From assembly GCA_017163975.1 (NCBI GenBank), contig JAFFSR010000363.1:1268001-1332000 (forward strand): DNA of 64,000 nt, in the 5' to 3' direction. The translations under genes and the position numbers were made by a program. Below are positions 12,713 through 49,383 of the stretch, one piece after another. The stretch comes from Anastatus disparis. Lineage: Eukaryota; Arthropoda; Insecta; Hymenoptera; Eupelmidae. The notes beneath the pieces are model-generated. The model saw only the letters and a program-made list of their open reading frames with translations, did not search any database and was not told the origin of the DNA. Numbering within the stretch: the stretch's first letter is position 1; every line of letters begins with the position of its first letter.

Positions 12713-12840
12713 AGTAGTTATAGGGGTACCATGGACCGTCAAAACAAACCCCCACTCCACCACCCCAAAGGTTACTGACCGGTGAGTCAATGACCTCTGA
12801 GAAGGTGAAGTAGGGGCTTGTTAGGCATGGTACCCGAACA
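12713..12840. repeat. Left terminal hairpin repeat of inner Polinton
   Basis: About 128 bp starting AGTAGTTATAGGGGTACC. It matches the reverse complement of 31,020-31,151 along its length, including the asymmetric centre (ACTGACC... TCAATGACCTCTGAG). It is also self-complementary: GGGGTACCATGGACC at the outer side pairs with the inner GCATGGTACCC. Directly inside lie two short direct repeats of GAGGGTCACT / AAGGGTCACTGACCCC (12,845-12,925). Confidence 0.8.
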
Positions 12841-14200: not shown

Positions 14201-14644
14201 TTATGCATAGCAAGTTTTTTCTATGAAATTCTTTACTATAGCATCATTTTTTTGCAAATTCTGCGAGAAATTTTCCAAGAATTTCTTGAAATCCAATCCG
14301 GTAGACATATAATACAGAAACATGATACAATAATGACCACAAACATTGGAATATTCGTTTTGTAAGCGTTTATTATTCCATCTAAATTTTTTACAATTTT
14401 GCTGAATACGTCGTAAATGTTGTTGAATTTGTGGTGGCTTACCAAGACTATCAAAGTACACACCTGTGCCATACTTATCAACGTATATGGCAACCCAGTG
14501 CGCACCACGCTGGTTATAATTTTGCGTATTAAGCACAAGCGCACAAGGTTTCACCCACATCAGAGGAATTCGATCCGCTGGATAAACGCCTACTGCGTGA
14601 AACTTGATCCTCATCAGATATCGCACAATCTCTTTTGAATTCAT
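14201..14644 (-). CDS. Adenain-type cysteine protease, element 1
   Basis: A C48/adenovirus-type maturation protease of about 147 aa, starting at MNSKE (14,644). A longer frame to 14,674 is possible, but the homologue in element 2 starts at the same Met. Motifs in order are VGVYPADRIP near the N terminus, then HW (catalytic His) in AHWVAIYVD, FDSLG (catalytic Asp region), and Q/C in NVCGHYC near residue 112. Polinton proteases are thought to process capsid proteins after assembly. All catalytic residues are present and the frame is open. The upstream RNase H-like ORF overlaps its start by 116 nt in another frame. Confidence 0.85.
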   Translation of the reverse strand: MNSKEIVRYLMRIKFHAVGVYPADRIPLMWVKPCALVLNTQNYNQRGAHWVAIYVDKYGTGVYFDSLGKPPQIQQHLRRIQQNCKKFRWNNKRLQNEYSNVCGHYCIMFLYYMSTGLDFKKFLENFSQNLQKNDAIVKNFIEKTCYA

Positions 14645-15173
14645 TGCGGAGAATTTCGAAAAATTCTTCCACAATCAGCGATTTCACGCTGGAGTTAAGT
14701 TTCAGTAGCCACTGTTTCAGATTAGCAGCGTTATTTAGAGCACACACGTAATTTGAATACGATGATTTTATGTAATGATGCATACACTGTACACTGCTGA
14801 ATTTCAAATTTCTAAAAGCTGGACAATCTTGTTTTTCTAAATTTTCAATCTTACAGGTGGTGAGCTTGGAAAGTAGTTCAAGCTTTTCTTGACCTCGCAC
14901 GAAAATTACACGACAATGCTTGCAAATATTTTCCAAATTTTTGTATAATATTTTTATCGATATATCACCTTCGTACCACTCCAGACCATGATGATTCAGT
15001 GTCACCCAATTGTTCTGTCTCGAAGCATTTTTAGGTAAGCGTCTTAAATTACAAGGAGGCGCCACAATCCAATGAGCGATAAAGTTTTTATGAATAGCAA
15101 GTACAGCCACCTCCTTTGGAATCAAACGGTTTTTGTTGTCCTTTAAAAACTGCACATCAATCACCACGTCCAT
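14529..15173 (-). CDS. Polinton-conserved RNase H-like protein of unknown role, element 1
   Basis: The likely start is MDVVIDVQFL (ATG 15,171-15,173); the frame is open further upstream to 15,230. The N-terminal pattern (D-x-x-x-D-x-Q, then KD, then PKEVAVLAI, then HWIVAPP) recalls an RNase H/exonuclease-type beta-alpha fold. Next come an HHGLEWYEGD block and a C-terminal Cys/His part with CALNN. The same protein is in element 2 at 48,335-48,900. I infer only a possible nuclease fold; function is not known to me. The C-terminal ~40 codons overlap the protease and may reflect a frameshift: residues after about position 190 are Ser-rich and lack a match in element 2. Confidence 0.6.
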   Translation of the reverse strand: MDVVIDVQFLKDNKNRLIPKEVAVLAIHKNFIAHWIVAPPCNLRRLPKNASRQNNWVTLNHHGLEWYEGDISIKILYKNLENICKHCRVIFVRGQEKLELLSKLTTCKIENLEKQDCPAFRNLKFSSVQCMHHYIKSSYSNYVCALNNAANLKQWLLKLNSSVKSLIVEEFFEILRNEFKRDCAISDEDQVSRSRRLSSGSNSSDVGETLCACA

Positions 15174-15265
15174 ACTGTTTGCAATTAAAGTTGCTCGCCG
15201 ACTGAGATGATAAAGATGGCTTTGCTCCACTTAAATAGCGAGAACTATATCCCCACCACTACTAC

Positions 15266-16567
15266 TTAACCGCTATAATCCACGACAACCTGTCTCGACA
15301 AGTCAATTTCGAGCAAATTGTCGTATTCAGCATAAATTATACAATTTACAGTGCCCTCTAGCGGGTCGTTGAATCTAACATCAATTCGTACATTACCATT
15401 TTTTATCAAATTCCAATGACTACCATCACTCGCCGATAAATCAGGTGTCAAATCAAAAGCGAATAGGCAGTAACCGTTTGGATAGTCTTTACGGGTAATC
15501 GAGTTGCCTGAATTTATAAAGTGAATACCAGTGCCGGAAAAAAGTGTATGATAAACATCAACGTACATTTTGCTATTTTTGAAATCTGGCTGTAAGGGTT
15601 TCGATGGCACTTGCATTCCATCAACGTACAGACATAAAAAATTTATATTAAAATTCTTGAAATTAAACGGGTTAAGACTTTTATCTCTGTTGTAAGCTTT
15701 ATTCTCAACAAAACCGAGTATAATTCTTTTTGGTAGTTGACCTAATATGACATTGTCGATTGTTTCCCCATGCACACCATTATGTAGTGTAACAGCCTTA
15801 ACTTCTACACGTGTCAGTAGGTATTTTGCAGTAGTCTGCGACAATAGTTTTTCGTGTGCTAGCACGAGTGAAGGATTTAATCTTACTCGACGCACAAAAA
15901 GCGTAGCCTCTGTAATATTTACTGTGAAAGCACCAGCGGGATCCATGAGACAGAAACCATCACGAGAACGCACGAGCCTTACTCTAACTTCAACACCACC
16001 CAGTAATAATTTGTCTTGATTAAAAACATCACAATGTAAATGGCCGAGTAAATCAATCTTTCTGTTAACCATAAGCGCTTTACGCTGGCTGAGACCTGTA
16101 TTACCACCTGTGATATCGTCCATTTTTCCTGCTGTATCATCGTACCACAATCCACTAGTTAAATGAGACTTTTTAGCTGTTGGGCCATAATTTAGTAATG
16201 TTTCAATGTAAGCTCTGTATGCATAAGCATTGTTTGGTGGTGAAACAGGTTTCTGATTGAATAGCACGTCGACTTGATTGAACAACGAATGCAAAAGATT
16301 ATTTATTGGTCCAACGTTCGGATCTTTAGGTGGCTCAGCACTAGTGCATGTTACACTGACACTCACACTTAACATTGTGTGAGCCAAGTCTAGATACTCA
16401 GTGTTGCCAGGGATGGTAAATTCAATTGGTGATTGGTCGTTAAGTGAAGATATCGGTTTGTATTGAACCCAGTAAGAGCCTTCAATTGCAGTCTGTGTCG
16501 AAGGTAATTCAAAAAGTGATAATTCCGACTTGATTGACTGACAAGATTCTGTATGCAACAGCGCCAT
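15266..16567 (-). CDS. Major capsid protein (double jelly-roll), element 1
   Basis: An intact 433-aa frame starting MALLHTESCQ and ending VVVDYSG. It has the look of the Polinton double-jelly-roll major capsid: an N-terminal SxWVQYKPIS-type block (here YWVQYKPISS), PIEFTIPG, LDLAHTML, an NNLLHSLFNQVDVLFNQK helix/strand, AYRAYIETLLNYG, and C-terminal YPNGYCLFAFDLTPD and CIIYAEYDN. In virion-forming relatives this protein builds pseudo-hexameric capsomers. Length is normal. The start codon follows the Gly-rich protein stop by 9 nt, suggesting a shared transcript. No inactivating change was seen. Confidence 0.9.
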   Translation of the reverse strand: MALLHTESCQSIKSELSLFELPSTQTAIEGSYWVQYKPISSLNDQSPIEFTIPGNTEYLDLAHTMLSVSVSVTCTSAEPPKDPNVGPINNLLHSLFNQVDVLFNQKPVSPPNNAYAYRAYIETLLNYGPTAKKSHLTSGLWYDDTAGKMDDITGGNTGLSQRKALMVNRKIDLLGHLHCDVFNQDKLLLGGVEVRVRLVRSRDGFCLMDPAGAFTVNITEATLFVRRVRLNPSLVLAHEKLLSQTTAKYLLTRVEVKAVTLHNGVHGETIDNVILGQLPKRIILGFVENKAYNRDKSLNPFNFKNFNINFLCLYVDGMQVPSKPLQPDFKNSKMYVDVYHTLFSGTGIHFINSGNSITRKDYPNGYCLFAFDLTPDLSASDGSHWNLIKNGNVRIDVRFNDPLEGTVNCIIYAEYDNLLEIDLSRQVVVDYSG

Positions 16568-17111: not shown

Positions 17112-17930
17112 CTAAAAGTGAAGCATTACAGTCAGCGTACCGTAGTCGAATGGAATAGGAAATCCGTGTTCGTCTCTTATATCTATTTCTATCGACTGAA
17201 ACGCTGAAGACAGCAGTGGTAGGTACATGGGTGGTGAAAAGTTTTTAATTTCAACACCTCCGTAAACGTAGTCACGCAAATGAAGCAAGACTATACGTAG
17301 TAAGCTCGTGCGCATGTCACCTGTTACATAAGGCTGGCAAATGTTGCTGTAAACCATGAGCACGGTTGGTAACCCGTTCACAAGATTTGCTGGTCGATTA
17401 CCGGCAATGTAGTGCTCTTTATTACCTTAGCAAGAGAAAATTGGTACATTTTCCAAACCTAAAATTCTAAGTAATTTTTCCGATAGGGTAAACGTGTGCA
17501 TATAAGTTGTACAATCTTCACCACATCGACATATAATCTGTACATAGCCACCAGCGCGGATTTAAAAATATAAATGATTTTTCACATTCTCGAGACTATT
17601 TATTTCTTCTAAGAGACTTTCAATGTTGCGGTAAACACCAGGTTTAACGCGGGCAAACACCTCGGCCTTCTGTTAAGTCTCCTCCTCTGTTTCTCGCAAA
17701 ACATTCGCCACGTCACGTTTGGATGTCTTAACAGAAATCACCCCCTCACGCTCTACCACTGATATATGCTGAAATGTGAGTGGTATTTGAATTTCCGTGA
17801 GTCCTACACACCAGTCGCCATGAGGATAAAAATTTTGTGATAATTGTGTTGTAAAATGTGTCGCCACATTATGTGGAAAGACAAACTTGCTGCTGTTGCT
17901 CGGTAAAACCATGTAAAATTCATCGTTCAT
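17112..17930 (-). pseudogene. Minor capsid (penton-like) protein, element 1, three in-frame stops
   Basis: One continuous frame starts MNDEFYMVLPSNSS at 17,930 (ATGA overlap with the integrase stop) and ends near 17,112 with FPIPFDYGTLTVMLHF. It is interrupted by TAA at 17,673-17,675, 17,562-17,564 and 17,427-17,429, with no frameshift. Shared blocks with element 2 are LPSNSS, the (D/Y)W(C/S)V(G/A)L..IQIP strand, RAGGYVQI, GLPT.LMVYS and GGV.IKNFSP. This is the Polinton single-jelly-roll minor capsid. At least one stop replaces a Gln codon of the homologue. The frame is otherwise well kept, so inactivation looks recent. Confidence 0.8.
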
Positions 17931-19036
17931 TGTAAATTTTTTAAATCTTTAGCTTCTATCCAAGAATTGAATTTTTCTGGGTACCCCCTCCAACTGACCA
18001 AATATTGTTTTTTCGACCCCCTACCTTTGCTCTTCAAAACCTCATCAACCTCAAACGCTTCGCTATCTAAATCTTTGCGCACTCTGCTCAACTGTTCTTC
18101 GTAAAAATATCCGTCAATTTTTTCTCCATCAAGATCAGTCAAAATATAGACGGGTGGTTGTTGTCTTGTGTCGACTCTTATAATTTTAAACAGCTCCAGA
18201 GTCCAGCCACCCTCGTATGCTTTCCTGAAGGCTGTCTTGGCACGACTGACACGAACCAGATTGCCAACGCTGTATTTAGCTACTCGAAACGGCTGTTTTT
18301 CGCTGTAACGCAACGTCAAATTTTGACGTACCACGTGAGCATTATATAAGTTGACTTTGGAAGGGGGCATTTTTATGGCACTGTGCCACGACTCGTTGTA
18401 ACACGTCACAATTTTTTGCAAAACGTCTATATAACGTCTTGTGCGCGAGTGAGTAAAGTATCGCCAGATACGACCTTTGAGAGTTCGAATAAAACGTTCG
18501 GCAATGGCTGCCTTTATATCAGGGTCTCTGACGACTCGATAGGTAATATGTTTCTTTTTTAACACCTCTTGCACCTCTCGACCGATGAACTCTTTACCTT
18601 TATCAGTCTGTAGATAAATAGGATGTCTATCATTACATCGTGATAAAATTTTATCCAATGCTACAGCGACGCTTCGACTGGTTTTGTCGAGAAGAGGCTC
18701 TACCCAGGCAAACTTTGAAAGTGCATCAATGACAATCAGAAAATAGCTGTATCCATCATTGTAGGTTTTAAGTGATCTAAAATCTGCCAAGTCAGCTTCC
18801 CACACTTCAAAGGGGCTAAAAACGTTGTAATGTCGACGAGGAAAACGATGTCTCACAAGTTTGTGTAAGGTATGTGCATCCTGACTTCCCAACCATTTGG
18901 CAATGGTATTGTTATGAAATTTTTTGGGTTTCGCGTGTTTCAGTAGATGAGCACCAGCGTACGCTGATGGCGCAGAAAGATTATAGTAATAATGCTCAAG
19001 ATCGTCCGGCTTTTTCGCCTCCTTCTTCTTTTTCAT
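17927..19036 (-). CDS. Polinton retroviral-type integrase with chromodomain, element 1
   Basis: An intact 369-aa frame. A conserved Polinton N-terminal YYN..AP.AYAG motif comes first. The RVE/DDE core follows, with catalytic Asp in WEADLADF, Asp in LQTDKGKEF and Glu in AAIAERFIRTLKG. Then comes an SH3-like region (RVSRAKTAF...EGGWTLELFKI). The C-terminal chromodomain has FEVDEVLKSK..., YLVSWRGYP and FNSWIEA, with aromatic residues intact. The enzyme inserts the linear element and makes the 6-bp target duplication; the chromodomain probably directs it to modified histones. It overlaps the PLA2 ORF upstream by 41 nt and the minor capsid start by 4 nt. Confidence 0.92.
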   Translation of the reverse strand: MKKKKEAKKPDDLEHYYYNLSAPSAYAGAHLLKHAKPKKFHNNTIAKWLGSQDAHTLHKLVRHRFPRRHYNVFSPFEVWEADLADFRSLKTYNDGYSYFLIVIDALSKFAWVEPLLDKTSRSVAVALDKILSRCNDRHPIYLQTDKGKEFIGREVQEVLKKKHITYRVVRDPDIKAAIAERFIRTLKGRIWRYFTHSRTRRYIDVLQKIVTCYNESWHSAIKMPPSKVNLYNAHVVRQNLTLRYSEKQPFRVAKYSVGNLVRVSRAKTAFRKAYEGGWTLELFKIIRVDTRQQPPVYILTDLDGEKIDGYFYEEQLSRVRKDLDSEAFEVDEVLKSKGRGSKKQYLVSWRGYPEKFNSWIEAKDLKNLQ

Positions 19037-19505
19037 TGCTCCTCCTCCTCCCCCTCTTACAAACTAGCTTTTTCTCTCTCTTTTGCTGTCTTTTAAATGT
19101 ATTTTTAATGCGTTTCAAAAATTTATCAAACGCAATTTTGCTGACCATGCACAAAACAGTAATACTAGCTGCAGTCTTTTCATTACCATCCGCAGTCTCC
19201 GAGAGCATGCGTGAAAATGCTCGTTCAGCCAGCAGTCTGTCGGCTTTTATATGATTCGTTATTTTTTTATTTGAATATGAAATATCGTGCTCTAGACAGG
19301 CATTGTCAAGAGAATTTTTTCCTCTCTGACCACGTCTGAGACGCTCTTCGAGATGCGTGCCAGGGCCGAGAAACTGGTAGCCTGATAGATGCATTTCAAA
19401 GGGTACAACCGAAATCAATCGGTCTATAATAGTACCAGTTTTCTCCCCCTCCTCCTCCTCCTTCCCCTCCATCACTTCCTTCCATGCTTTCACATACGGT
19501 CCCAT
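18996..19505 (-). CDS. Parvovirus-type phospholipase A2 protein, element 1
   Basis: A 169-aa intact frame. Residues ~45-80 hold a PLA2 core: calcium-loop FLGPGTHLEERL followed by NSLDNACLEHDISYS, whose HD is the catalytic dyad. The nearest known type is the compact PLA2 of parvovirus capsid proteins, which breaches endosomal membranes during entry. Here it is a free-standing protein with an acidic N terminus and a long Lys/Arg-rich tail (KRQQKREKKL...). It overlaps both neighbours (16 nt upstream, 41 nt downstream), so is probably expressed from one late transcript. Element 2 has a shorter homologue. Confidence 0.85.
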   Translation of the reverse strand: MGPYVKAWKEVMEGKEEEEGEKTGTIIDRLISVVPFEMHLSGYQFLGPGTHLEERLRRGQRGKNSLDNACLEHDISYSNKKITNHIKADRLLAERAFSRMLSETADGNEKTAASITVLCMVSKIAFDKFLKRIKNTFKRQQKREKKLVCKRGRRRSNEKEEGGEKAGRS

Positions 19506-20320: not shown

Positions 20321-20643
20321 GCCGATAAAACAGGTTGTACAATGAGCCGTATTAAATATGCTGATTTTACCACCAATTTCCTTTTTACCTCCAAAATACC
20401 CGGTTTAGCGAGTTTTCGCAACAGTGGTGCGACTTTTCGCAATTGTTTCTTATAATATTTGCTGAGTGGAATATTTCCACGTAAAATGTTTAAAGCACAC
20501 TCGCAAATGTACCTTATAAGTTTGGAATTTGCTTCGCGTAATATGGCCTTGAGTTGAGAAAGTTCGATTTTACACAAAACATGTAGCTGAGTCCAGTACT
20601 TTTCTGGAATTGGTCTGCTACGACTACGTCTCACCGGCTCCAT
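20299..20643 (-). CDS. Small basic Polinton protein with CECALN motif, element 1
   Basis: A 114-aa frame starting at the TAATG that ends the ATPase. It is highly basic, with a conserved LIRYICECALNILRGNIPLS block, then LRKVAPLLRKLA and a hydrophobic C-terminal segment. The homologue in element 2 (from 39,279) has the same block and a clearer C-terminal hydrophobic stretch (ILLAPLIGTVLSSLI), so this may be a membrane-associated or core protein. Common in insect Polintons; function unknown. Confidence 0.7.
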   Translation of the reverse strand: MEPVRRSRSRPIPEKYWTQLHVLCKIELSQLKAILREANSKLIRYICECALNILRGNIPLSKYYKKQLRKVAPLLRKLAKPGILEVKRKLVVKSAYLIRLIVQPVLSAWSTQEK

Positions 20644-21320
20644 TACAATCGCACGACTGGTACATTATTCGAGCGAGCACCAGCTTTTATGGGTTTGCAA
20701 CGAGGCACATAAACGTACTGATGTTTGTCGAACGGGAATATACAAGTACGAAATCTCACGTTTTCAGGCGTACCCTGTTTCAGATCTATGAACAAATAGC
20801 CGTGTGGTTGTACTGTGGCATCGAGATATGCCTCTTGCAAAAATCGAGGCTCCTCGGGAAGGACTTGGCGCGCCAGATGATTTATTTGCGCTCGATCGCG
20901 CAGATTTTTAAATACCACGATGTAGTTAGAGTTTAAAGAAATTTCTCGCTGACCTTGATGAAAGAGATTTTGCGAGATAAAGATGACGCTCAAGTTATTG
21001 TGATGACTGCCTTTGGTAAAGAGATTTACTACAGCTTTGTTGGACGATTCTCTCATCAGATCGTCGAGAATCAAGAGTTTTGCTCGTGGATCATTGGCAT
21101 AGTCTTCGCTCTTTGGTAAACCCTCGTGAAATTCGATACCCTCGGCCAACTCCTTGTAAATTGGCTGCCACTCGGTATAGTACAAGAGTATACGCTCGAA
21201 TTTTGTATCACTCATGCGATCAATGTGATGCAAAAAATTCTTCATGAATACTGTTTTACCACACGAGCTGGGTCCACAAATCATCAAAGTCCACGGATGC
21301 ACCCACCTGCAAACATCCAT
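20643..21320 (-). CDS. Genome-packaging ATPase (FtsK/HerA, A32-like), element 1
   Basis: An intact 225-aa frame from MDVCRWVHPW. Walker A is CGPSSCGKT at residues ~16-24, Walker B is KLLILDDLM near residue 88, and a sensor-type SVIFISQN follows. These are diagnostic of the Polinton/NCLDV packaging ATPase, which would pump DNA into capsids. Its start faces the divergent PPP1R15-like gene across a 466-bp intergenic region. The stop overlaps the next ATG (TAATG). No disabling change. Confidence 0.92.
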   Translation of the reverse strand: MDVCRWVHPWTLMICGPSSCGKTVFMKNFLHHIDRMSDTKFERILLYYTEWQPIYKELAEGIEFHEGLPKSEDYANDPRAKLLILDDLMRESSNKAVVNLFTKGSHHNNLSVIFISQNLFHQGQREISLNSNYIVVFKNLRDRAQINHLARQVLPEEPRFLQEAYLDATVQPHGYLFIDLKQGTPENVRFRTCIFPFDKHQYVYVPRCKPIKAGARSNNVPVVRL

Positions 21321-21786: not shown

Positions 21787-22002
21787 ATGAATCAAACAAA
21801 ACAAGTGCATTTCAAAGAGAGTAAGCCGAAAATTCATGTGATACGCGTGTGGGACTATGCGAGTCGTGCAGCGCGATGTGGAGAGTGGGAGCAAGCGGCT
21901 TGTGATAGAGAAAGATTCAGAATGAGGGTGGAAAGGATGCGGATTATTCTGGAACCTGTGCTTTTGAAAAAAATTGATGACTACTCAATTAATAGAAAAT
22001 AA
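21787..22002 (+). CDS. PPP1R15/GADD34-like PP1-regulatory protein, element 1
   Basis: A 71-aa intact frame, opposite in strand to the other core genes. Residues 5-9 (KQVHF) fit the PP1-docking K-x-V-x-F motif. Residues ~17-50 carry the PPP1R15 core pattern: VIRVW, then an Ala/Arg-rich turn, GEWEQAACDRERFRMRVERM. In cells this core joins PP1 and actin to dephosphorylate eIF2alpha, and several large DNA viruses carry similar short proteins to keep translation going. The homologue in element 2 keeps both motifs. Recognition is by motif pattern only. It has its own TATA/initiator and a leader intron, is divergent from the ATPase and convergent with the polymerase. Confidence 0.75.
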   Translation: MNQTKQVHFKESKPKIHVIRVWDYASRAARCGEWEQAACDRERFRMRVERMRIILEPVLLKKIDDYSINRK

Positions 22003-22134: not shown

Positions 22135-25100
22135 TTAATTAGACTTATAACCGTATGGATAGCTAATCTCGTTATTCACAAATCGTCTCTTTGAGTACAC
22201 GGGCTCGCATATTTTACATTCAGGTCGTGTTATAACATCGTGAAACCGTGTGCGTCTAATAGCGTCATAGTTTGCAAAAAGTGGCGGTATTTTACCAGTA
22301 ATAAGATCTCGTATAGAATTAAAGTTTATTTTCTGATTCACCGACGAATTAAGTCTTATACCCTTGATTTTGCAAACACATCCTTCAACGCCATCTGGTG
22401 TCAAATATTTATAGGCGTAAAATTTGGGTCCTCCAGAGACGAATGATGTGATGCTTGTGCCAAGATCATAACAGGCCAATTCGTCGGTCAAGTCACCCAA
22501 GAACGGCCCTGTTTTCGCATCGTACTCACCCTCGCGACTTACATACACAATAGAGTCTGTATCGTAATACAATACACGTTCACCCAGCGGTTGCAATTCT
22601 TCGTAAAGTTTTAAACGCGCCAAGGCTGTGGTATAAGCGGCTACGATAACGTTACACAATGGTGATGGCTCAACAACCGATTCTTTGTTGTGCCAACTTA
22701 TATAAATTGTCGTCTCATTGATCGGTAAAATTCAGTCGACCTCGGTCTCGACACTGCAGAGTAACTCAAACAATCTTTGTGGATCATCTATCACTTCAGT
22801 CTTTGGCATATTCTCTCGTTGACCAAATTTACCCCACAATGAATTTAAACAGAGTTTTGCTACAGATCTCAGATCAGCGTTATATTTTATTCGAGTTTTG
22901 TCTAATTTAATGCCCTCTTGTTGCACAAATTCCTCAATATATCGAGCAATCGCGTTTTCATCACCGTCAGCACATTCCGAACGGTAACCTGACGCATAAG
23001 TTTTCTCAGCGAAAAATTTATCGATATAAGTTGGAAATAGACCACCCAGACCCGTGGCCTTGTTGTACTGAGTAATTTTATAAGACCATATTTCAAATAT
23101 TTTTCTGATGATATAACCCATCTGAACAGCTTTTTTCAACTCGTCACCAACCCACGTGCCGATAAAAACTCGATCATCAGGATTTTCATGGTCACAATCT
23201 GCGGTATACATTGATTCGGCACACGTTCGACACAGCGGAAACAAAAGCTTATTATGCATTTTAACGGGTAGTACAGCATGATATATATTTTGCGGTGGCA
23301 ATACTTCGCATTTAATAAGACCTTCAACGTGACTTATATTATTTGTTTGACCCACCAGAGAGCGACACTCATCTTCATCCACGTAAAGAGTAGGATGACC
23401 AACGGGATATCGACCGTATTTACAGATATATGGATATAATGAACACACGTCTACGTATTTTATTTTCTCACCCTTTTTTGCATCGTAAATTTTGACTATA
23501 TTACCCGTACGACCACCAAAAAATGCTTTTCGAGGATTCAACGGTTCATGCCAATTTCGTGTTTTATTATCGATATACGTCTTCATAATTTCGTTCTGTG
23601 AGTACTCATGATCAAAATCACATTCCCACTTTTCTATTAGTTGATAGCCGTGGCTTCTTATCTTTTCGGATATTCGCGCGGTTCTCTCAAAACGTTTGTC
23701 CATATTTTCACCGTTTACGTGGCGTGAGTCACGGTTCACTGTGTAACACCATACACAGCCATGCCAATAACACCCGTGGAATTGTAAAACAATTTTCGTA
23801 CCGTTTTCAAGTTCGCAGTATCCATCCACTAGAGGGCCCTCGGGAAGTCTCTTTTCTCGAGCTCGGACAGTATACCGAATTTGATGATTCAGCACATTTT
23901 CCATCCAACACAGCCACCGCATCGTCTTCATAGACTGCTTGTTTGCTTGTCTATAACCACCCTGAGGTATGATTCCTATAGTGTCTTTTTGTAAAAAATT
24001 TTTTCTATATACACGCAAACAAGATGATGCAATGGTGGCGCACTCTACGAATGGATCTGTATTACCACATTCTATGAAGGTTTTGCGAAAGGCCAAGCAT
24101 GCTAATCGTAAAATTTTTACATCTTGTCTACAGTATTTTATAATCTCATTTTTAAAATTAAATATATAATTTTCATTTTTTTTTTCATTATACCACTGTA
24201 TAAATTCTCGTCGCTCATCGACCTTCATCGAATTTGGTGAAAAAGACCACACAGGTGGCATTTCTCCAACGTAATTTTGATTCTCTGGTGTGTTAAACAA
24301 ATGAGGAAACGTACCTTTCTCGATATTAGCAAGACCGTAAGCTTTTGGTAGTGCAGCTAAACTCATGTGTAAGTAATTTAAGCTGTCTATGAATTTAACG
24401 GTTGAAATTTCCATTATGATTATTTTTGACCCGTTTAAAATTACATGTGGCTCATCTCTAAGATCTGTACGTTCTGTCAAATGCTTGAGAATAAATTGCG
24501 CATCAAAACCCTGTGCATTGTGGGCTATACAAATAATTTGCTTGAAACTTTTTCTTGTTGCTAAGGCCAAATCAACTAGCTGTTTTACAGGGTCGATTTC
24601 AAACACGTATTCGCGTATACCACATATTTCGCAAGAATCTGTTATATTTTCATCATCCAAACAATAATTACATACTTGTTGTACAACACACAAGTTTGGT
24701 ACATGCAAACTTATTTTTTCACCATCAGCACCCGAGATAATTTCCGATTGTTGAGTCTCAAAATCATAAAATAAATAAAGTATATTCTTTTTATTGGTTG
24801 CAAATCCTTTTTTGCTGATAAAGGGTAGCATGTAACAAAGGTGTTCTATCGGTATTTTACGATTACATATTTTACAAAATATCGTATTACAATTATGTGG
24901 ATCTTTATCGCACATTCGAACTGTTTTACTGCACAAACGACAAATTTTTATGCTCTCGCATACCGACCGAAAATTATCGAAAGATTTTGAGATTTTATGA
25001 TTTTCCAGACATTACCGTAAAAATCTCTAGTGCATTGAATACATCTTATTTTTTCCTGATTTATATCGCAAGGGGGACTCTGAAAACATTTACAGCATTT

Positions 25101-29635: not shown

Positions 29636-30520
29636 ATGTTCAATCAACCACCATCACCGATCGTCATCGACGACGACGACGAAGTTCAAGTACTGGACGT
29701 CGATGTCCAGGTACTTGAGAACTCGGTGAATATAGCACCACTCGTAAATTTCATTAATTACGATGTAGCTAATGTTTTTGTGCCCAATTACTGGGTGATA
29801 TTGGACAACCCAGTGAACGAAGTGGTGAACGATGTGATAGTGCAAAATGAGGTAGAAGAAGGTGGAGCAGTGATGCAGCAAAATGAGGTAGAAGAAGACA
29901 GAGAAGTGATGCTGCAAAATGAGATTGAAGAAGGCAGAGAAGTGTTGGCACAAAATGAGATAGCAGAAGGCAGAGAAGAAATGGAAAATAATAATCTAAA
30001 AGAAGAAGGCAACAACGACTCAGGATACGAGTCCAATGAAGATGAAGTTGATCCTGATTATGCTCCACAGGCGATGGAGGTAGAAGAAGAAGATGAGGAG
30101 GATGAAGAAGATGAGGAGGATGAAGAAGTAGATGAGGCCGAACTGGTACAACGCTACCATAGGTGTCGAGCAGATAAGGCTCGTCAACACCATGTGCTTG
30201 GTGTGGTACGCCTCTATTGGCGTGCACGCATTGCAAAATTACGTTTAGAGAGAAAGCGTAGTTTACGACGTCTACAACGGGATTTAAGGAGAGTAAGAGA
30301 CCAACGACAAGAATTGGAAAGGATAATACCTCGACCTCATCGTCGCGCGGATCCCACATTAGAACGCCCACGTAGAGGTCATGACGTGTGCTGGGGCTGT
30401 GCGAAGCCCTTTTATAGACAGAGTGTCCGTCTGTGGCAAAGGTGTGATTCGTGCGGGTTGTGGCTTTGCCCGGATTGTGCGCTGGATCCGGTGCACTGCC
30501 AAAATGATATTATAATTTAA
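29636..30520 (+). CDS. Unrecognised acidic protein with C-terminal Cys-rich finger, element 1
   Basis: An intact 294-aa frame transcribed outward, toward the polymerase-end terminus. Residues 1-75 are acidic/hydrophobic. Then come four imperfect 13-residue repeats of the type QNEVEEGREVM, and a Glu/Asp run. Residues ~170-235 are a strongly basic, Arg-rich helical segment likely to be a coiled coil (RLERKRSLRRLQRDLRRVRD). The C terminus has C-x2-C-x14-C-x2-C-x4-C-x2-C-x6-C with conserved-looking Trp, a probable zinc-binding treble-clef or RING-like module. I do not recognise the family. Position suggests an early accessory or regulatory gene of the element. A host-derived gene is the alternative. 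Confidence 0.65.
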   Translation: MFNQPPSPIVIDDDDEVQVLDVDVQVLENSVNIAPLVNFINYDVANVFVPNYWVILDNPVNEVVNDVIVQNEVEEGGAVMQQNEVEEDREVMLQNEIEEGREVLAQNEIAEGREEMENNNLKEEGNNDSGYESNEDEVDPDYAPQAMEVEEEDEEDEEDEEDEEVDEAELVQRYHRCRADKARQHHVLGVVRLYWRARIAKLRLERKRSLRRLQRDLRRVRDQRQELERIIPRPHRRADPTLERPRRGHDVCWGCAKPFYRQSVRLWQRCDSCGLWLCPDCALDPVHCQNDIII

Positions 30521-31019: not shown

Positions 31020-31151
31020 CAGGGGTATCATGAACCGTCATAACAAGCCCCTACTTCGCCTTCTCAGAGATTATTGACCTAGTGGTCAGTAATCTTTGAA
31101 GTGGTAGAGTGGGGGTTTGTTGTGACGGTCCATGGTGCCCCTATAACTACT
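31020..31151. repeat. Right terminal hairpin repeat of inner Polinton
   Basis: Inverted match of 12,713-12,840. This copy is an almost complete hairpin: CAGGGGTATCATGAACCGTC at the inner side pairs with the outer GACGGTCCATGGTGCCCC, and pairing continues through AAGCCCCTAC/GTGGGGGTTTG to TGACC at the centre with only a few loop bases. Confidence 0.8.
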
Positions 31152-34063: not shown

Positions 34064-37000
34064 AGCGGTGAAGGTATCGAGCGAGAAGTGGAGGAGCCAC
34101 AAGAAAAACCAATATTCTTAATTGAAAACCAAACTTCCCGATTTTACCAAAAATTTATTGCAGAAGATGTAGAGATTTTGGGAAGAATATCATCACCGCC
34201 AGCGGAAGCAAACATTTTTGAGTGGTTAAAAGGATCTTTAGATGATCTGCGTAATCAATTAGTGAATGGACGTAGTCCTTCCGATTTTATAGGTGTAACG
34301 ATACTATCTGATCATTTTGTTCATGGACCATTATGGCTATTTTTCAGACCTATTGGAAATTTTACTACTCAAGATTTGTGGGAAATGATATCTAGTATCG
34401 CACAGAGTTCTCAAGACTTTGACATAGATGAAAACTTTGTGATCAAGTGTGTTATAGTGCTGGACATTAGGGGAAACGGACGTGTTCGATTAAGTGATGA
34501 TCATGTGTACAAAAAATCAATTTCAACTATACGCGACGACGATAATCTTTGCTTTCCGAGATCATTAGTTACGGCACTCGGCTATGCTGTAAGAGGACAA
34601 ATTCGCTCTGGTACACTACACGATTACTGAAATAGTATTAGACAGCACAATAGTAGAGAGCAAAAAAGAGCAACTCTTGATCTCATTGATCAAGCACAGG
34701 TTACTATACCATCAACAGGGTGTGGTTTACGAGAAATTCATCAGTTTAAAATTTTTCTGACTACAAAAAGCACAGCTATTGTGATTTACTCTTTTCGGAA
34801 TTTCGGGCGTGGGGATATACCTCTTTATGATGGTACAAAAGTTGTAATTGATACATACCAAAACGTATCTTATACACTACGTATAATGTATTATGAAAAC
34901 CAAGGACATTATCAACCTATTCTAAACTCGACTTGTGCAGCCGGTAGTATAGGGTATTGCATACCATGTAATAAAAGTTACAAGTTCGCTATGGATCATA
35001 GATGTTCTAATAGATGTTTTAAGTGCATGCAATCACCAGTTTGTGACAACAGTACGGATATAAAAAAGTGCTTTAATTGCTTTAGAGAGTTTTTTGGTAA
35101 TACATGTTTCGAGAACCATTTGAAATCAGGATCGTTTAAAAGAAACGTAAGTGTTTGTAAAGCGGTGAAAATTTGTCAAATTTGTTGTAAAACTATCCGT
35201 GTAAAAAACCGCGGTGAAAAACATGAATGCGAAGTTGTATTTTGTGACATTTGTAAGAAACTGCTACCGATAAACCACTTTTGCTATATTCAGCCTGTAG
35301 AGCAAGGTAAGGAAAGATCTAAAATATTATATTTATTTTATGATTTTGAAACACAGCAAACTTTTTCTGTGTTAGGTGATGAAAATAAAAAAATACATGT
35401 ACCTAAGCTGTGTGTTGTACAACAAGTTTGTAGTTTTTGTCTAGAGGATACTAATATATCAAATATGTGTGAAGAGTGCGGTATTCGTGAATTTGTATTT
35501 CAAAAACATCCAGTAAAACAATTTGTTGGGTTAGCTCTATCACGACGTGAAAAGTTTAAGAAAGTTATTTGTATAACACAATTCGCAAGGGTTTGATTGT
35601 CAATTTGTATTCAAGTATATCGTAGAAAACCATTGTTCACGGGAGAAATCATCGGTGATTTTAAACGGTTCCAAAATAATTCTGATGCGAATTTCAAGCG
35701 TTAAATTTATCGATAGTCTAAATTATTTTCATATGCCACTATGTGATTTACCGAAAGCTTACGGGTTGTCAGATATAGAAAAAGGAACTTTTCCACATTT
35801 ATTTAACACAGAAGAAAACCAATTATATATCGGTCCTTTACCGAGCCTAGATATATACGGTGTCAATGGTATGAACAGTAAAGAAAGAGAAAAATTTATA
35901 GAATGGTATATTCGACAGGCAGATACAGGATACATATTTAATTTCCAAAAAGAAATCGTAAAATATTATAAACAAGATGTTAAAATACTGAGAGAGGCCT
36001 GTATCGAATTTCGAAAAAATTTCATGAAGTTTAATGTAGACCCATTCGAAGAACTCACAACCATAGCTTCATCGTATATGCGTGTTTACAGAAAAAAGTT
36101 TAAAAAAAAAAATCAAATAGGTGTTATGCCTGTGAGAGGGTACAGAATGGCTGATAATCAATCCATTAAAGCTATACAATGGCTTTATTTAATAGAACAA
36201 AAGGTTCTACAGTGTCGAATCGAGCATGCAGGGCATGGACGCGAGAGAAGACTTATTGAAGGTATTCTTGTTGATAAATACGCTCTACCACGGACAGATG
36301 AGGATCATAATGGTACAGTTCTTCAATTTTACGGGTGCTACTGTCATGGATGTCCACGATGTTACAGAATAAATAGAAATAAAACATTATCATCAGGCGA
36401 ATCGCTTGACGACAGATATGAAAGAACATGTGCTATATCTTCAAAAATTAAAACTGCAATTATACACTCATTAAAATGTGGGGTTGCGAATTTAAGCGGG
36501 AAATTTCACGTAACCAGGAATTGAGAGAATATATAGATGCGAATATCGATATTGTTTATCGTAAACCGCTGGACCTCCGTGATGCATTTTTCGGTGGTAG
36601 AACTGGTAACACGGTAAAATTATACGAGTGTGAGGGTGATGAAAAAATTAAATACGTTGATGTATGTTCAGTATATCCATACATTTGTAAACGAGGTAAA
36701 TATCCTGTGGGTCATCCAACGTTATATGTGGGTAATGAAACTCAAACTCTCATAGGGGTTAACAACGACATCAGTAACGTTGAAGGTCTTATCATGTGTA
36801 ATGTACTCCCGCCCAGAAATTTGTATCACCCTGTTTTACCAGTTAAAATGCATGGAAAATTAATTTTTCCTCTTTGCCGTACGTGCTGTGAACAAATGAT
36901 TCAAATGGATTGTATGCACGATAATACGATAAATCGGGTATTACACGGAACATGGGTGTCGGAAGAGCTTAAAAAAGCTGTAGAAATAGGATACGTGATT

Positions 37001-37972
37001 CAAAACGTTTACGAAATATGGCAATATGAGGTGGTACAATATAATCCTGTCACGCGAACAGGTGGTATTTTTACCGAGTACATCGATGAATTCTTTAAGC
37101 AAAAAACCGAGGCTTCTGGTTACCCGTCAGAGTGTATTACCGAAGATCATAAGGACCGATATATAGAGAACTTTGAACGTGAAGAGGGTATTCGTCTAAG
37201 TAAAACTGATATAAATTTTAATGCGGATTTGAGATCGGTTGCTAGACTATGTTTAAACTCGTTATGGAGGAAGCTCGCGCAACGAGATAATGTGGCTAAA
37301 ACAGAGGTTGTTACAGAGCCAGCAAGATTGACAGAACTACTTACCAATGCTGAAGTGGTTGTAAACAGTATCATCCCAGTCAACGATCAGGTATTGTACG
37401 TGAACTGGCAGTATCAGGATAAAGCTCTCTTACAGTCACGCACGACAAGTGTTGTAATTGCAGCTTTTACAACAGCACAAGCCCGGCTTAAACTTTTTGA
37501 TTATTTGAACAAACTAGGATCTCGTGCACTGTACTACAACACAGACTCCGTTTTCTATGTCAGTAAGAACGACGAACACGATTTGCCGATCGGTACACTG
37601 CTTGGTGAACTTAATGATGAATTAGCGGAGAAAGGTGTTGGTACATACATATCATCTTTTGCCTCTGGTAGGCCGAAATTTTACGCGTACAAGTGTAAAC
37701 TTCCAGATGGTTCTGAACAAACAGTATGTAAAATTAAAGGTATAAGACTAAATCATTCAAATAGTCAAAAAATTAATTATGAAAGTATACGCGAGTTGAT
37801 ATCGGGTGACATGGACGAAATTATTATATCTTTACCGGCAGTAAGAAGGACAGATTTTCACGAAGTATTATCACTTACAGAGACGAAAACTTGTAAAACC
37901 GTATATGGTAAAAGAAGATTTTTCGGGTTGAAAAGAGCTACCCGTACGGATACAGACACAGTTAACGACTGA
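34064..37972 (+). pseudogene. Protein-primed DNA polymerase B, outer Polinton, broken and catalytically altered
   Basis: Same architecture as element 1: an N domain with FVHGPLWLFFR and DNLCFPRSLV, Cys-rich region, exonuclease YDFETQ, motif A DVCSVYP, motif B region and motif C. Breaks: TGA at 34,628-34,630, a frameshift near 35,580 and another near 36,460. In addition motif C reads YYNTDS (37,532-37,549), with the first catalytic Asp replaced by Asn. Motif B reads LNSLWRKLAQ, losing the conserved Gly and Phe-Gly. Both argue it was already inactive or was decaying without constraint. Coding ends at TGA 37,972. Confidence 0.88.
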
Positions 37973-38334: not shown

Positions 38335-38499
38335 ATGGAGAAAAAAAGTGTGAGATTTGATCCCAACTCACCAAGTATTCGTATATTACACGTGTGGAAT
38401 TACGCCAGTCGTTCTGCACAGCGTGATGAGTGGGAACAAGCGGCACGAGATCGGGTACAGTTTAGATGGAGGATCGAGAGAATTGGTAAAATTATTTAA
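38335..38499 (+). CDS. PPP1R15/GADD34-like PP1-regulatory protein, outer Polinton
   Basis: A 54-aa frame from ATG 38,335 (MEKKSVRFDP), chosen because the PP1-docking K-x-V-x-F motif (KSVRF, residues 4-8) then lies at the N terminus as in element 1. The core reads LHVWNYASRSAQ, DEWEQAARDRVQFRWRIERI. The frame is also open further upstream to 38,188. It is shorter at the C terminus than the 71-aa homologue. It is one of the few open frames in this decayed element, and is transcribed in the same direction as the polymerase, unlike element 1. Confidence 0.7.
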   Translation: MEKKSVRFDPNSPSIRILHVWNYASRSAQRDEWEQAARDRVQFRWRIERIGKII

Positions 38500-38625: not shown

Positions 38626-39279
38626 ATGGATATTAGATGAAAAGACTCGTGGACATCTATGCTTTGCGGACCTAACGGTTGTGGCAAAACAGTGTTTGTA
38701 GAAAAATTTTTAAAATACATCGATCGTATGAGTGACACACGTTTCGATCGCGTGATCGTTTACTATGCTGAATGGCAGGCAGGTTACAAAAAGCTTGGGA
38801 GACATATAGAATTTAGACATATAGACTCACGCCCTAAGTTATTAATATTGGATGATCTGATGCGTGAATCATCCTCAAGTAACGCCATTGTCAACTTATT
38901 CACGAAGGGGAGTCATCACAATAACCTAAGCGTCATATTTATTACACAAAATATATTTCATCAAGGAAAAGGCCAACGAGACATTTCGCTCAACGCGCAA
39001 TACATAATCGTGTTTAGAAATTTAGGCGATCGTACATAAATACAACATCTTTCGCGCCAGCTCTGTCCTGAAGATCCACGATTCTTACAAGAGGCGTACT
39101 GGGACGCCACCTCGCAGCCATTTGGATACCTTTTTCTAGATTTAAAACAAAATACTCCAGATAATTGTCGTTTTCGTGCTTGCATCTTCCCCGATGACGA
39201 ATATCAGTACGTTTACGTACCTCGAAAGCCGTTTAAAGGCGTTGATTCGAGTAATCACCTTCCAGTCGTATCTTTGTGA
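38626..39279 (+). pseudogene. Packaging ATPase, outer Polinton, two nonsense codons
   Basis: Read from ATG 38,626, one frame without shifts. Walker A is CGPNGCGKT, Walker B is KLLILDDLM and the sensor is SVIFITQN. TGA at 38,638-38,640 (fifth codon) falls at a Trp of the homologue and TAA at 39,037-39,039 at a Gln. The frame ends at TGA 39,277-39,279, overlapping the next ATG. About 217 codons, a little shorter than element 1 because of a gap after the GRHIEF block. Confidence 0.85.
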
Positions 39280-46359: not shown

Positions 46360-46903
46360 ATGAATTGTTACGAGGCATACTTTGACATGCAGATCGGTGG
46401 TGGTGGTAAAAATGGTAAGGGTATCGGACGTATTTACGTTGGAGCCCCCTACCAAAGAGGGCATGGTGGTGTAGGAAGTTTTCTAGCTGGGTTGTTTCGT
46501 CGTGTACTACCGCTACTCACCCATGATGCTAAAGCTGTGGGAGAGGAGGCATTGCGTACCGGTGTGAACGTTTTATCTGACGTTGCAACACAGAATACTC
46601 CAATCAAAGAATCTCTACGAAATCGTATAAAAGAGTCTGGCACAAATCTTAAAAGAAAGGCTGAAGAGAAACTGAATAAATTGATGGAAGGATCTGGATA
46701 TAAGAAACAGCGTTATCTGTCTGCTTTGCAGTTGGATGACGGCCATGTCAGTGTTAAGAGTACTCGAAGAAAGATTAAACGGCGCAGCACAAAAAATAAA
46801 AGGAATTAAGTCGTAATGAAGAAAATAAATAGAACCAGAAAAAAAAAGAAAAATTCTCGAAAAAGTAAACAAGTACGAACGACAAGAGATATTTTCGATT
46901 AAA
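46360..46903 (+). pseudogene. Gly-rich basic PX-type protein, outer Polinton, C-terminal frameshift
   Basis: From ATG 46,360: DMQIGGGGKNGKG at the N terminus (a possible adenain site), VGSFLAGLFRRVLPLL, GEEALRTGVNVLSDV, RIKESGTNLKRKAEEKL. The frame ends at 46,809. The conserved basic end (TTRDIFD) is found in another frame at about 46,816-46,903, directly before the major capsid ATG, so one shift near 46,805 separates them. Otherwise collinear with element 1. Confidence 0.75.
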
Positions 46904-46904
46904 A

Positions 46905-48229
46905 ATGGCGTTTTTACACACGCAGTCCTGTGAGTGCATGAAATCGGAATTGCTTCTATTCGACATTCCTCCGACACAGACTACTATCGAGAGCTCTAAT
47001 TGGGTTCAGTATAAGCCTATCTCCTCGTTGACTGATAACGCACCTATAGAATTTGTAATATCTGGAAATGGTGAAGATTATTTAGATTTAGCACATACTA
47101 TGCTTAGCTTGCGCGTTAGCTTATACACCACTGTCGATGAGTATCCTGGAAATGTGACTGCAGAACTACTCAATAAAGTGGCACCGGTGAATAATTTTAT
47201 GCACTCACTATTCAGCCAATTAGATGTACTATTTAACCAGAAACCTGTGACAGCTCCAAATAATGCCTACGCGTACAGAGCATACATCGAGACACTGCTC
47301 AACTATGGCCCTGCTGCTAAAAATTCTCATTTATCAACCGTTTTGTGATGTGACGATACAGCTGGGAAAATGAACGATGTGGGTAGTGACAACCAAGGAC
47401 TTGTAAAGCGGCGTGAATATTTGGGCGCAAAAAAAACTGTAGATCTTGTCGGGCATTTACATGCCGATGTGTTTAATCAAGAAAAGTTGTTACTAAACGG
47501 CGTTGAAGTAAGAGTTCGTCTAGTGCGCTCTCGAGATGGTTTTTGTCTCATGGATTCTTCAGGATACTTTGCCGTACATATAGAAGAAGCTTATTTTTTA
47601 GTTAGACAAGTAAAAATTAACCCAAGTGTGCTATTAGCACACGCAAAAGCACTTCCTAAAGCTACAGCTAAATACCCTCTCACAAGAGTTGAAGTCAAAG
47701 CTGTAACAATGCATAGCGGTATACGTGGTGAAACTCTGGATAATATTATTTTAGGGCAGTTACCTAAAAGAATAATCATAGGGTTTGTTCAAAACAAGGC
47801 GTTTAACGGAGACCGAATGCTCAATCCGTTCAATTTCGATCATTTTAACATCAATTTTCTATATTTGTTTGTTGATGGTGTTCAAATACCTTCAAAACCA
47901 TTACAACCTGATTTCAAAGTAAAAAGTTATACGCTGATGCATATCATACTTTATTCAGCGGTACAGGTGTTTATTTTCTCAATGAGGGAAATAAAATTAC
48001 TCCTGAGTCGTATCCAAACGGTTTCTGTCTGTTTGCATTTGATATATCACCCAATTTATTGGCAAATGAATGTACTCATTGGAATTTAATAAAACATGAA
48101 AGTGTTAGACTCGATGTCAGATCTAGCGAAACTCTGACAGACACCGTCAATTGTATAATTTATGCAGAATACGATAACATTTTAGAGATTGACGCATCGC
48201 GACAAACAATTGTAGATTTCAATGGGTAA
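46905..48229 (+). pseudogene. Major capsid protein, outer Polinton, one stop and one frameshift
   Basis: Starts MAFLHTQSCE at 46,905; the blocks NWVQYKPISS, LDLAHTML, AYRAYIETLLNYG and PKRIIIGFVQNKAF match element 1. TGA at 47,346-47,348 falls at a Trp of the homologue. A frameshift near 47,930 moves the C terminus, whose YAEYDN block ends at TAA 48,227-48,229. Length without breaks would be normal for the family. Confidence 0.88.
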
Positions 48230-48334: not shown

Positions 48335-48900
48335 ATGGATGTAGTCGTGGATATTCAGTGCTTAAAAGATAGCAATAACAGAGTTGTTCCAAAAGAAGTC
48401 GCCATCGTAGCTTTGAACGATGATTTTAGCGGTCATTGGATTATCGCATCGAAAAATCGTATAAACGCTTTTAGCAGAGGCATAAGAAGAGAAAATAATT
48501 GGCTTGCAGAACATCATCATGGTCTTGACTATTTTGACGGTGATGTCACGGAGAAAGCTCTCTACCAAAACGTTGCGCGATCTTACTCGGAAAGTTAGAA
48601 AAATTTACGTGAGAGGTAAAAAAAAGTGGTCAATTTCATACGGTATTACAGCGCGAGAAATTATAAATTTATAATCAAATAAAGATTGCCCGACATTTAA
48701 TCGGCTACCCTGGTTAAATAAGTATTGTCTCAATCACGCTGTAAAGACACCTCATCTAAAATATACGTGCGCTTTAAACAATGCGTACCGTTTAAAAAAA
48801 TGGTTATCTTTACGAGATTTAGAGCGTGATTCTGAATTTGTGCTTCAACCACTGACACTTCTTTGCGATGAACAGCCTGGAGATAATGGAAATTTTGAAG
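48335..48900 (+). pseudogene. RNase H-like Polinton protein, outer Polinton, broken
   Basis: Starts MDVVVDIQCLKD at 48,335 with PKEVAIVAL, HWIIAS and HHGLDYFDGD as in element 1. The frame is lost after 48,590. Homologous sequence with CALNNAYRLKKW is recovered in another frame at about 48,690-48,900, overlapping the protease start. The middle is scrambled by at least two shifts. Confidence 0.65.
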
Positions 48901-49383
48901 GTTATACCGTCTCACTCTGTAGGAGTGTACCCAGCAGATCAAATTCCGAAGGTGTGGACGAAACCGACGGCAAGTGTAGTGAACACTGATGGCCATACAA
49001 AACCCGGAACGCTTTGGGTGTGTATGTATGTTAACCGTAGTGGTACAGCTTGGTATTTTGATAGTTATGGAATGCCGCCTTTGATACCAGATTATATTAA
49101 CCGTCTACGTCGTAATTGTAATAGATTGCGTTGGAATACGGTAAAATTACAGAGTGAAACATCTGATGTGTGCGGCCAATTTTGTATCATGTTTTTGGAT
49201 TACATGACATCTGGATTGGGTTTCGAGAAATTTCTTAAAAATTTTTCTACTGATTTAGTAAAAAACGATGCTGTAGCCAGAAATTATGTACCGTTCAAAC
49301 ATGCTGACGACAACTTTTCTGGAAATGGTTGTTGTATGATAAGATGTTTTCAAAAGTGTTGTGGTAAGCTGTCATTAGTGTAA
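48868..49383 (+). CDS. Adenain-type protease, outer Polinton, catalytic His replaced
   Basis: Starts MNSLEIMEIL at 48,868; the frame is open for 171 codons. VGVYPADQIP, WYFDSYG (Asp region) and SDVCGQFC (catalytic Cys) are present. The position of the catalytic His, HW in element 1, reads LW (GTLWVCMYV), so proteolytic activity is not expected. The C terminus runs into an Asp/Phe/Cys-rich tail that is repeated downstream. Confidence 0.75.
   Translation: MNSLEIMEILKVIPSHSVGVYPADQIPKVWTKPTASVVNTDGHTKPGTLWVCMYVNRSGTAWYFDSYGMPPLIPDYINRLRRNCNRLRWNTVKLQSETSDVCGQFCIMFLDYMTSGLGFEKFLKNFSTDLVKNDAVARNYVPFKHADDNFSGNGCCMIRCFQKCCGKLSLV

Follow-up and report, generated by a model that had tools for sequence, protein, structure and literature searches.

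A short PPP1R15-like protein predicted from Polinton elements of the hymenopteran Anastatus disparis

The closest described systems to the locus studied here are the cellular PPP1R15 proteins, their viral counterparts and the Polinton/Maverick elements. ASFV DP71L and HSV gamma-34.5 counter translational shut-off, and whether Polintons are transposons or integrating viruses is a long-standing question. With regard to human PPP1R15A, dephosphorylation of phosphorylated eIF2-alpha is abolished by V556E, W582A and F592A and weakened by R578A; W582 matters for dephosphorylation with the kinetics of PP1 and actin binding unaffected, and F592 lies within the actin-contacting part (PMC5429092, in the part of the text available). 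W582 is termed invariant in the available part of PMC8500838, and viral GADD34-like proteins are discussed, citing gamma-34.5, in that of PMC10743859. On the side of the elements, the terms GADD34, PPP1R15 and eIF2 are absent from the available parts of PMC11071296, PMC8363768 and PMC11071308. No published report of a PPP1R15/GADD34-type gene in Polintons/Mavericks was found in a literature search that left most subscription journals outside, in agreement with the initial annotation, which was made from the DNA letters and knew of no such description for Polintons.

We analysed a window of 64,000 nucleotides (Anastatus disparis assembly GCA_017163975.1, contig JAFFSR010000363.1, positions 1,268,001 to 1,332,000 of the forward strand), which contains an inner Polinton and a diverged outer one. 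The mini-PPP1R15 ORF of the inner Polinton, assigned to family F1, is open over exactly 21787-22002 on the forward strand with 71 codons (71 aa). Its N-terminal region contains KQVHF as the RVxF motif, followed by the PPP1R15 core VWDYASRAARCGEWEQAACDRERFRMR, and it lies between the A32-type ATPase and the DNA polymerase B (PolB) of this element, antisense to both neighbours. The initial annotation had described a short intact ORF with K-x-V-x-F and the PPP1R15 core, placed between the polymerase and the ATPase of a Polinton, and both the frame with its motifs and its place in the inner element are as described. Moreover, the residues that human PPP1R15A requires for activity (V556, R578, W582 and F592) are all present. 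The predicted product thus belongs to the PPP1R15 (GADD34/CReP) family and represents a free-standing form, reduced to the core and borne by a Polinton.

The inner element shows the Polinton hallmark of a viral-type PolB (PF03175) and a retroviral-type integrase (PF00665) with chromodomain. PolB is split into two frames in this copy (22135-24936, reverse strand; PF03175 at 2.6e-41 for 22735-24936), and its part at 22135-22659 forms a single frame with PolB in other copies. All the following genes of the inner element are also on the reverse strand: the integrase (17927-19036; Pfam rve and Chromo, both above cut-off), an A32-type ATPase of 225 aa (20643-21320; Pox_A32 at 8.3e-6, above cut-off), a phospholipase A2 (PLA2)-like ORF (18996-19505; PF08398), an adenain-like protease (14201-14674), which is 53% identical to the outer frame 48856-49380, whose ORF matches Pfam Peptidase_C5, and an open capsid-like ORF of 433 aa (15266-16567). 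The last one, which we take to be the major capsid protein, gave no Pfam match and has 2363 database relatives. Among 120 listed relatives, nine carry an organism name, all of Hymenoptera, and these comprise eight F54H12.2-like proteins and one 'Uncharacterized protein'. The relatives named 'uncharacterized protein F54H12.2-like' are apparently element genes that were entered as host genes. The outer element, in which the gene order runs in the opposite direction, has PolB in two overlapping frames (35655-37972, forward strand; PF03175 in 35655-36521 and 36476-37969), pieces of the integrase, a fragment of the A32-type ATPase (38659-39039, forward strand; Pox_A32 at 6.3e-5, just above cut-off) and a capsid-like protein in three frame pieces (46869-48226, forward strand; 63-66% identical to the 433-aa ORF of the inner element). 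The ATPase, the adenain-like protease and the capsid-like ORF are all found in the window Polintons.

Several other features of the inner element were recorded. Polintons typically end in terminal inverted repeats next to a 6-bp target site duplication. Inverted repeats of 111 nt (12713-12823 and 31041-31151, 88% complementary) flank the inner element and may represent its termini, or else a palindromic repeat of another kind. An acidic ORF of 294 aa at 29636-30520 (forward strand) has a C-terminal cluster of CxxC pairs, which looks RING/zinc-finger-like by eye, with no Pfam match, and is a possible second accessory gene of this Polinton. The 233-aa ORF at 14529-15230 (reverse strand) belongs to a family without a name and is perhaps exonuclease-like; the outer element contains a related ORF, as do the diverged F2 and F3 elements described below.

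The relation of the mini-gene to PPP1R15 was evident in searches of the PDB. The window ORF alone gave PPP1R15A (4.4e-6), ASFV DP71L (2.8e-5) and again PPP1R15A (7.4e-5) as the best three phmmer matches. A profile (A1) was made from an alignment of nine family members of this genome, the probable host exon included. Its top six PDB matches, from 4.8e-15 to 6.1e-5, are all PPP1R15A, ASFV DP71L or PPP1R15B (best values 4.8e-15, 4.5e-9 and 7.3e-6, respectively), and the first match beyond them is at 0.21. The initial annotation had proposed a profile comparison with PPP1R15, and the alignment of family members thus matches PPP1R15 structures. The Pfam model PF10488 gave no report for the window ORF alone at E up to 1 or up to 10, reported 5/9 of the A1 members at E <= 0.001, and listed all seven members scanned singly at E 0.032 to 8.8e-6, none of them reaching its curated 26.1-bit cut-off. 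The best value among the A1 members (8.8e-6) belongs to the probable host exon, which scores 26.0 bits, and in a six-frame search of the genome with PF10488, 2/75 matches were above the cut-off. The unrelated Pfam model NIPSNAP was slightly ahead of PF10488 for F4 (E 0.006) and F5 (E 0.003); several mini-PPP1R15 proteins, including L024 (F4) and L052 (F5), match it weakly (E 0.003-0.05), which we took as chance. A database search with the window ORF as a single sequence returned no candidates, and that with the A1 profile returned 52 proteins of 41 to 113 aa, among them a Nasonia vitripennis protein annotated 'protein phosphatase 1 regulatory subunit 15A-like' (P0023) and a partial CDS from Cotesia congregata (P0037).

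Residues were numbered by taking KVRF as 555-558, as given in the available part of PMC10743859, together with the phmmer and A1 profile alignments. For the counts, L001, L021 and L053 were dropped as duplicates and the host row was kept apart. Among 69 mobile copies, many of which are near-identical and whose loci were obtained via matches or neighbours, the W582 equivalent and D588 are each kept in 69/69 and F592 in 68/69. The RVxF PP1-docking motif is present, with V556 in 63/65 and F558 in 65/65 of the copies that have a residue there, and W570 is likewise kept in 65/65. R578 (62/66), G580 (63/67) and R595 (64/69) are kept in most copies and R589 in 52/69, F2 having H at this position. R591 is kept in just 44/69, F4 having Q, and the phi-phi histidine H565 in just 35/65.

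The same two motifs had also been claimed for the copy in the outer element at 38335-38499 (forward strand), which belongs to family F4. Both are recognisable there (38335-38496), but this copy is damaged: it reads ...RIGKII and then stops after 54 aa, where the other F4 copies examined continue to the 68-aa end (11/11), and the positions of R578 and G580 are occupied by Q and D, respectively. The mini-gene of the outer element is on the same strand as PolB and ATPase, unlike the antisense arrangement in the inner element.

Many further copies of the mini-gene exist in the 939 Mb genome searched. A 32-base F1 core pattern with up to three mismatches was found at 378 places genome-wide, and its reversed control at none. 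The matches that were scored are the best 150 of 1144 first-look candidates for the inner ORF, of 1028 for the outer ORF and of 1104 for an F2 member; these three lists overlap in part, and the first-look candidates are not all necessarily real. We distinguished six sequence families, which differ in position and orientation, with Polinton-related neighbours in five of them. By eye, ATPase and PolB frames were present on either side at all of the first eight F1 loci, and the 12 F4 loci had a PolB frame in 12/12 and an ATPase frame in 11/12. PolB and/or ATPase relatives also adjoin the mini-gene at 19/20 further loci, which were selected for carrying it. The exception is L052 (C17:1471800-1477000), a member of F5, the family closest to F1, where no recognised Polinton gene was seen in the 5 kb around; it could be an element with unrecognised neighbours or a displaced gene. 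Viewed from the ATPase, comparison of coordinate lists (150 inner-ORF rows and 43 rows picked from the outer, F2 and other searches) placed a mini-gene within 3.5 kb of 83 of the best 150 ATPase matches, mostly at two distances that reflect the strand. When 20 of the other 67 ATPase copies were sampled, the mini-gene or a recognisable part of it was found in 15 and was absent from the stretch in 5, and among the first 100 of the 378 core places the core stood beside 3 of the remaining 47 ATPase copies (C113 twice and C252). The initial annotation had regarded absence of the ORF from all related Polintons as counter-evidence, and these counts show that the ORF recurs in them.

The mini-gene is also present in diverged element lineages. 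The surroundings of the F2 loci (L009, L010, L012, L014, L016 and L018) and the F3 loci (L011, L013, L017, L019 and L020) are unlike those of F1, and the neighbours, where seen, are an exonuclease-like ORF, the nature of which is a guess, a capsid-like ORF or a PLA2-like ORF. They are related to genes of the window Polintons, as judged from the F2 exonuclease-like (2.5e-16), F3 exonuclease-like (1.5e-12) and F2 PLA2-like (2.9e-27) ORFs, the link through the capsid-like ORF being weak (6.8e-5; hhalign probability 69%). In the short stretches covered around F2 and F3, neither a PolB nor an integrase was recognised. In F6 (L054 and L055), an integrase-like frame with 28-35% identity adjoins the mini-gene. 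Since the neighbours of F2, F3 and F6 are related to Polinton genes, the mini-gene occupies several positions in diverged Polinton-related lineages.

To evaluate selection, Nei-Gojobori counts with a transition weight of 2 were made between actual copies. Purifying selection between families is clear: dN/dS of F1 against F1b, F5, F2 and F4 is 0.14-0.33. The window F1 copy differs from the F1b copy L034 by 18 synonymous changes in 47.0 sites and 14 nonsynonymous changes in 166.0 sites (ratio 0.17, Fisher p 4e-6), and its ratio is 0.16 against F5, 0.15 against F2, 0.23 and 0.31 against two F4 copies, and 0.29 against F3, where dS is near-saturated (p 0.005). Some pairs are higher (F1b-F4 up to 0.40, F5-F3 0.55, F2-F3 0.49) and some are beyond estimate. 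Within families, synonymous and nonsynonymous changes number 0/4, 1/11 and 1/7 in F1 pairs, 1/6 in F4 and 6/1 in F1b. Thus, the dN/dS comparison proposed in the initial annotation gave purifying selection between families but no constraint within young F1 and F4 pairs. Such a pattern is expected if the element lineage is under constraint and its copies decay once integrated.

These data bear on where the mini-gene came from. It might be suspected that a short frame antisense to both of its neighbours, as the F1 ORF is, resembles PPP1R15 by chance in noncoding DNA. The E-values in the PDB, the purifying selection, and the occurrence of the same protein on the sense strand in F4 and next to other genes in F2, F3 and F6 leave this a negligible probability, and we rejected it. 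A recent, one-off capture of the host exon by one element, followed by amplification, has in its favour the structure of the element ORFs, which run on across K|V and, apart from a start codon and a few residues, coincide almost exactly with the final exon of the probable host gene. This gene (L015/L053; C254:2966079-2969198), probably the animal's own PPP1R15, has an acidic open frame of 270 codons that ends in ...HPTK and is followed by gt; 0.4 kb beyond it, after ag, the frame VRFDLTPTIHPMIQWNYAYRAARRGPWEEMARDRERF... begins, so that a phase-0 intron is predicted from the sequence exactly at K|VRF of the PP1-docking motif. The other matches listed are at most 63% identical to its last exon. 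The main evidence against recent capture is the dS between the host exon and the element forms, which is 1.1-2.0 or beyond estimate and makes any capture old. In the full tree of 60 rows, 11 host-type and 41 short rows stand apart and 8 rows are in neither group (bootstrap 62 and 66 for the two groups; SH-aLRT 89), the label 'host-type' being based on the C-terminal ending, which is itself part of the tree signal. The same tree leaves some room for capture, as the test did not reject a forced grouping of the host row with F4 (p-AU 0.076) and rejected that with F1/F5 weakly (0.036). On the other hand, a tree of 22 rows, hand-picked after the larger tree had been seen and omitting 38/60 rows including the 8 in neither group, splits 14 short from 8 host-type rows at 100/100 and rejects both forced groupings (p-AU 0.001 and 0.0003). 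We regard recent capture as very unlikely; the tree separation and the dS values favour an old gene common to the elements over a recent capture from this host.

As to function, we consider it likely that the mini-protein is a free-standing PP1-targeting subunit, a core-only PPP1R15 that would dephosphorylate eIF2-alpha for the benefit of the element. The K-x-V-x-F segment would bind cellular PP1 at its RVxF groove, the W...R..G.W....D...F core would recruit G-actin and position eIF2-alpha, and the holoenzyme would strip the inhibitory phosphate, so that initiation could run on during synthesis of the element's proteins. The sequences show homology, conserved functional residues, presence of the gene in several Polinton-related lineages and purifying selection between these; that the mini-protein is expressed, binds PP1 and actin, acts on eIF2-alpha and helps the element is what we infer. 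Phosphorylation of eIF2-alpha is targeted by some insect DNA viruses, as by baculoviruses with their PK2, which makes the pathway a plausible target. Some of the same data could be read as a PPP1R15-derived PP1 adaptor with a target other than eIF2-alpha, either an element protein or another host protein. The substrate is predicted from homology and motifs, the core is changed in F4 (R591 to Q) and F2 (R589 to H), and very short proteins can switch targets. However, W582, which matters for dephosphorylation, and F592, in the actin-contacting part, are among the most strictly kept residues, and we think that such a change of target is unlikely. A germ-line transposon could also profit from the same biochemistry by having its proteins made in stressed cells, with no virus or infection implied. 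This reading, which is compatible with dephosphorylation of eIF2-alpha and differs in lifestyle alone, has to our mind an appreciable but clearly minor chance. It accords with the hundreds of integrated copies and with the outcome of scanning viral contigs with the ORF profile, with PolB and with ATPase, where none of the 76, 1 and 3 pattern stretches, respectively, was confirmed, although in our opinion this collection is poor in insect viruses. Against it, the inner element keeps virion-type genes (the open capsid-like ORF, the protease relative, the ATPase and the PLA2-like ORF), which do not by themselves show particles or infection.

We lean slightly toward the view that hymenopteran Polintons/adinto-like viruses have long maintained mini-PPP1R15 as a standard effector. 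On this view, the gene has been carried across diverged lineages and relocated between positions, and the elements, like large DNA viruses, manipulate the integrated stress response of the host. The initial annotation had proposed a host-translation antagonist, which would support a viral lifestyle; its interpretation is supported by the family profile and by the recurrence of the ORF, the antagonist role and the viral lifestyle being putative. If true, the effector would indicate that the element passes through a phase where it has to overcome the translational shut-off of the host, and a conserved host-directed effector under purifying selection in several lineages would be difficult to account for if the element did not regularly encounter cells that are shutting off translation. 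Moreover, one genome holds hundreds of copies of a potential stress-response regulator, and any expressed copy could affect the host. A PPP1R15 core of 60-70 aa from a mobile element is also an easily testable protein.

Finally, comparison with the known systems places this gene as follows. It shares with PPP1R15A, PPP1R15B and insect PPP1R15 the RVxF motif and the equivalents of W570, R578, G580, W582, D588 and F592 at the same spacing. Compared with the cellular proteins, the element form is 54-71 aa long in the copies examined and lacks both the long acidic N-terminal part and the intron predicted between K and VRF; many copies lie beside Polinton genes, and the element forms tend to group apart from the host-type exons. 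The mini-protein may therefore escape regulation that is located in the N-terminal part or the predicted intron of the probable host gene. ASFV DP71L is likewise a short viral version of the same core and is matched by the A1 profile as given above, though it is more distant from the window ORF than the other insect forms are. HSV gamma-34.5 is also described as a viral mimic of PPP1R15. In contrast to these two, the carrier here is a Polinton/Maverick and not a nucleocytoplasmic virus or a herpesvirus. Viral PPP1R15 mimics are thus known, and carriage by Polintons is new as far as the literature was searched. The window Polintons have in common with described Polintons/Mavericks and adintoviruses the PolB, the rve integrase with chromodomain, the A32-type ATPase, the adenain-like protease and the capsid-like ORF, and they add to this set an accessory gene of PPP1R15 type.
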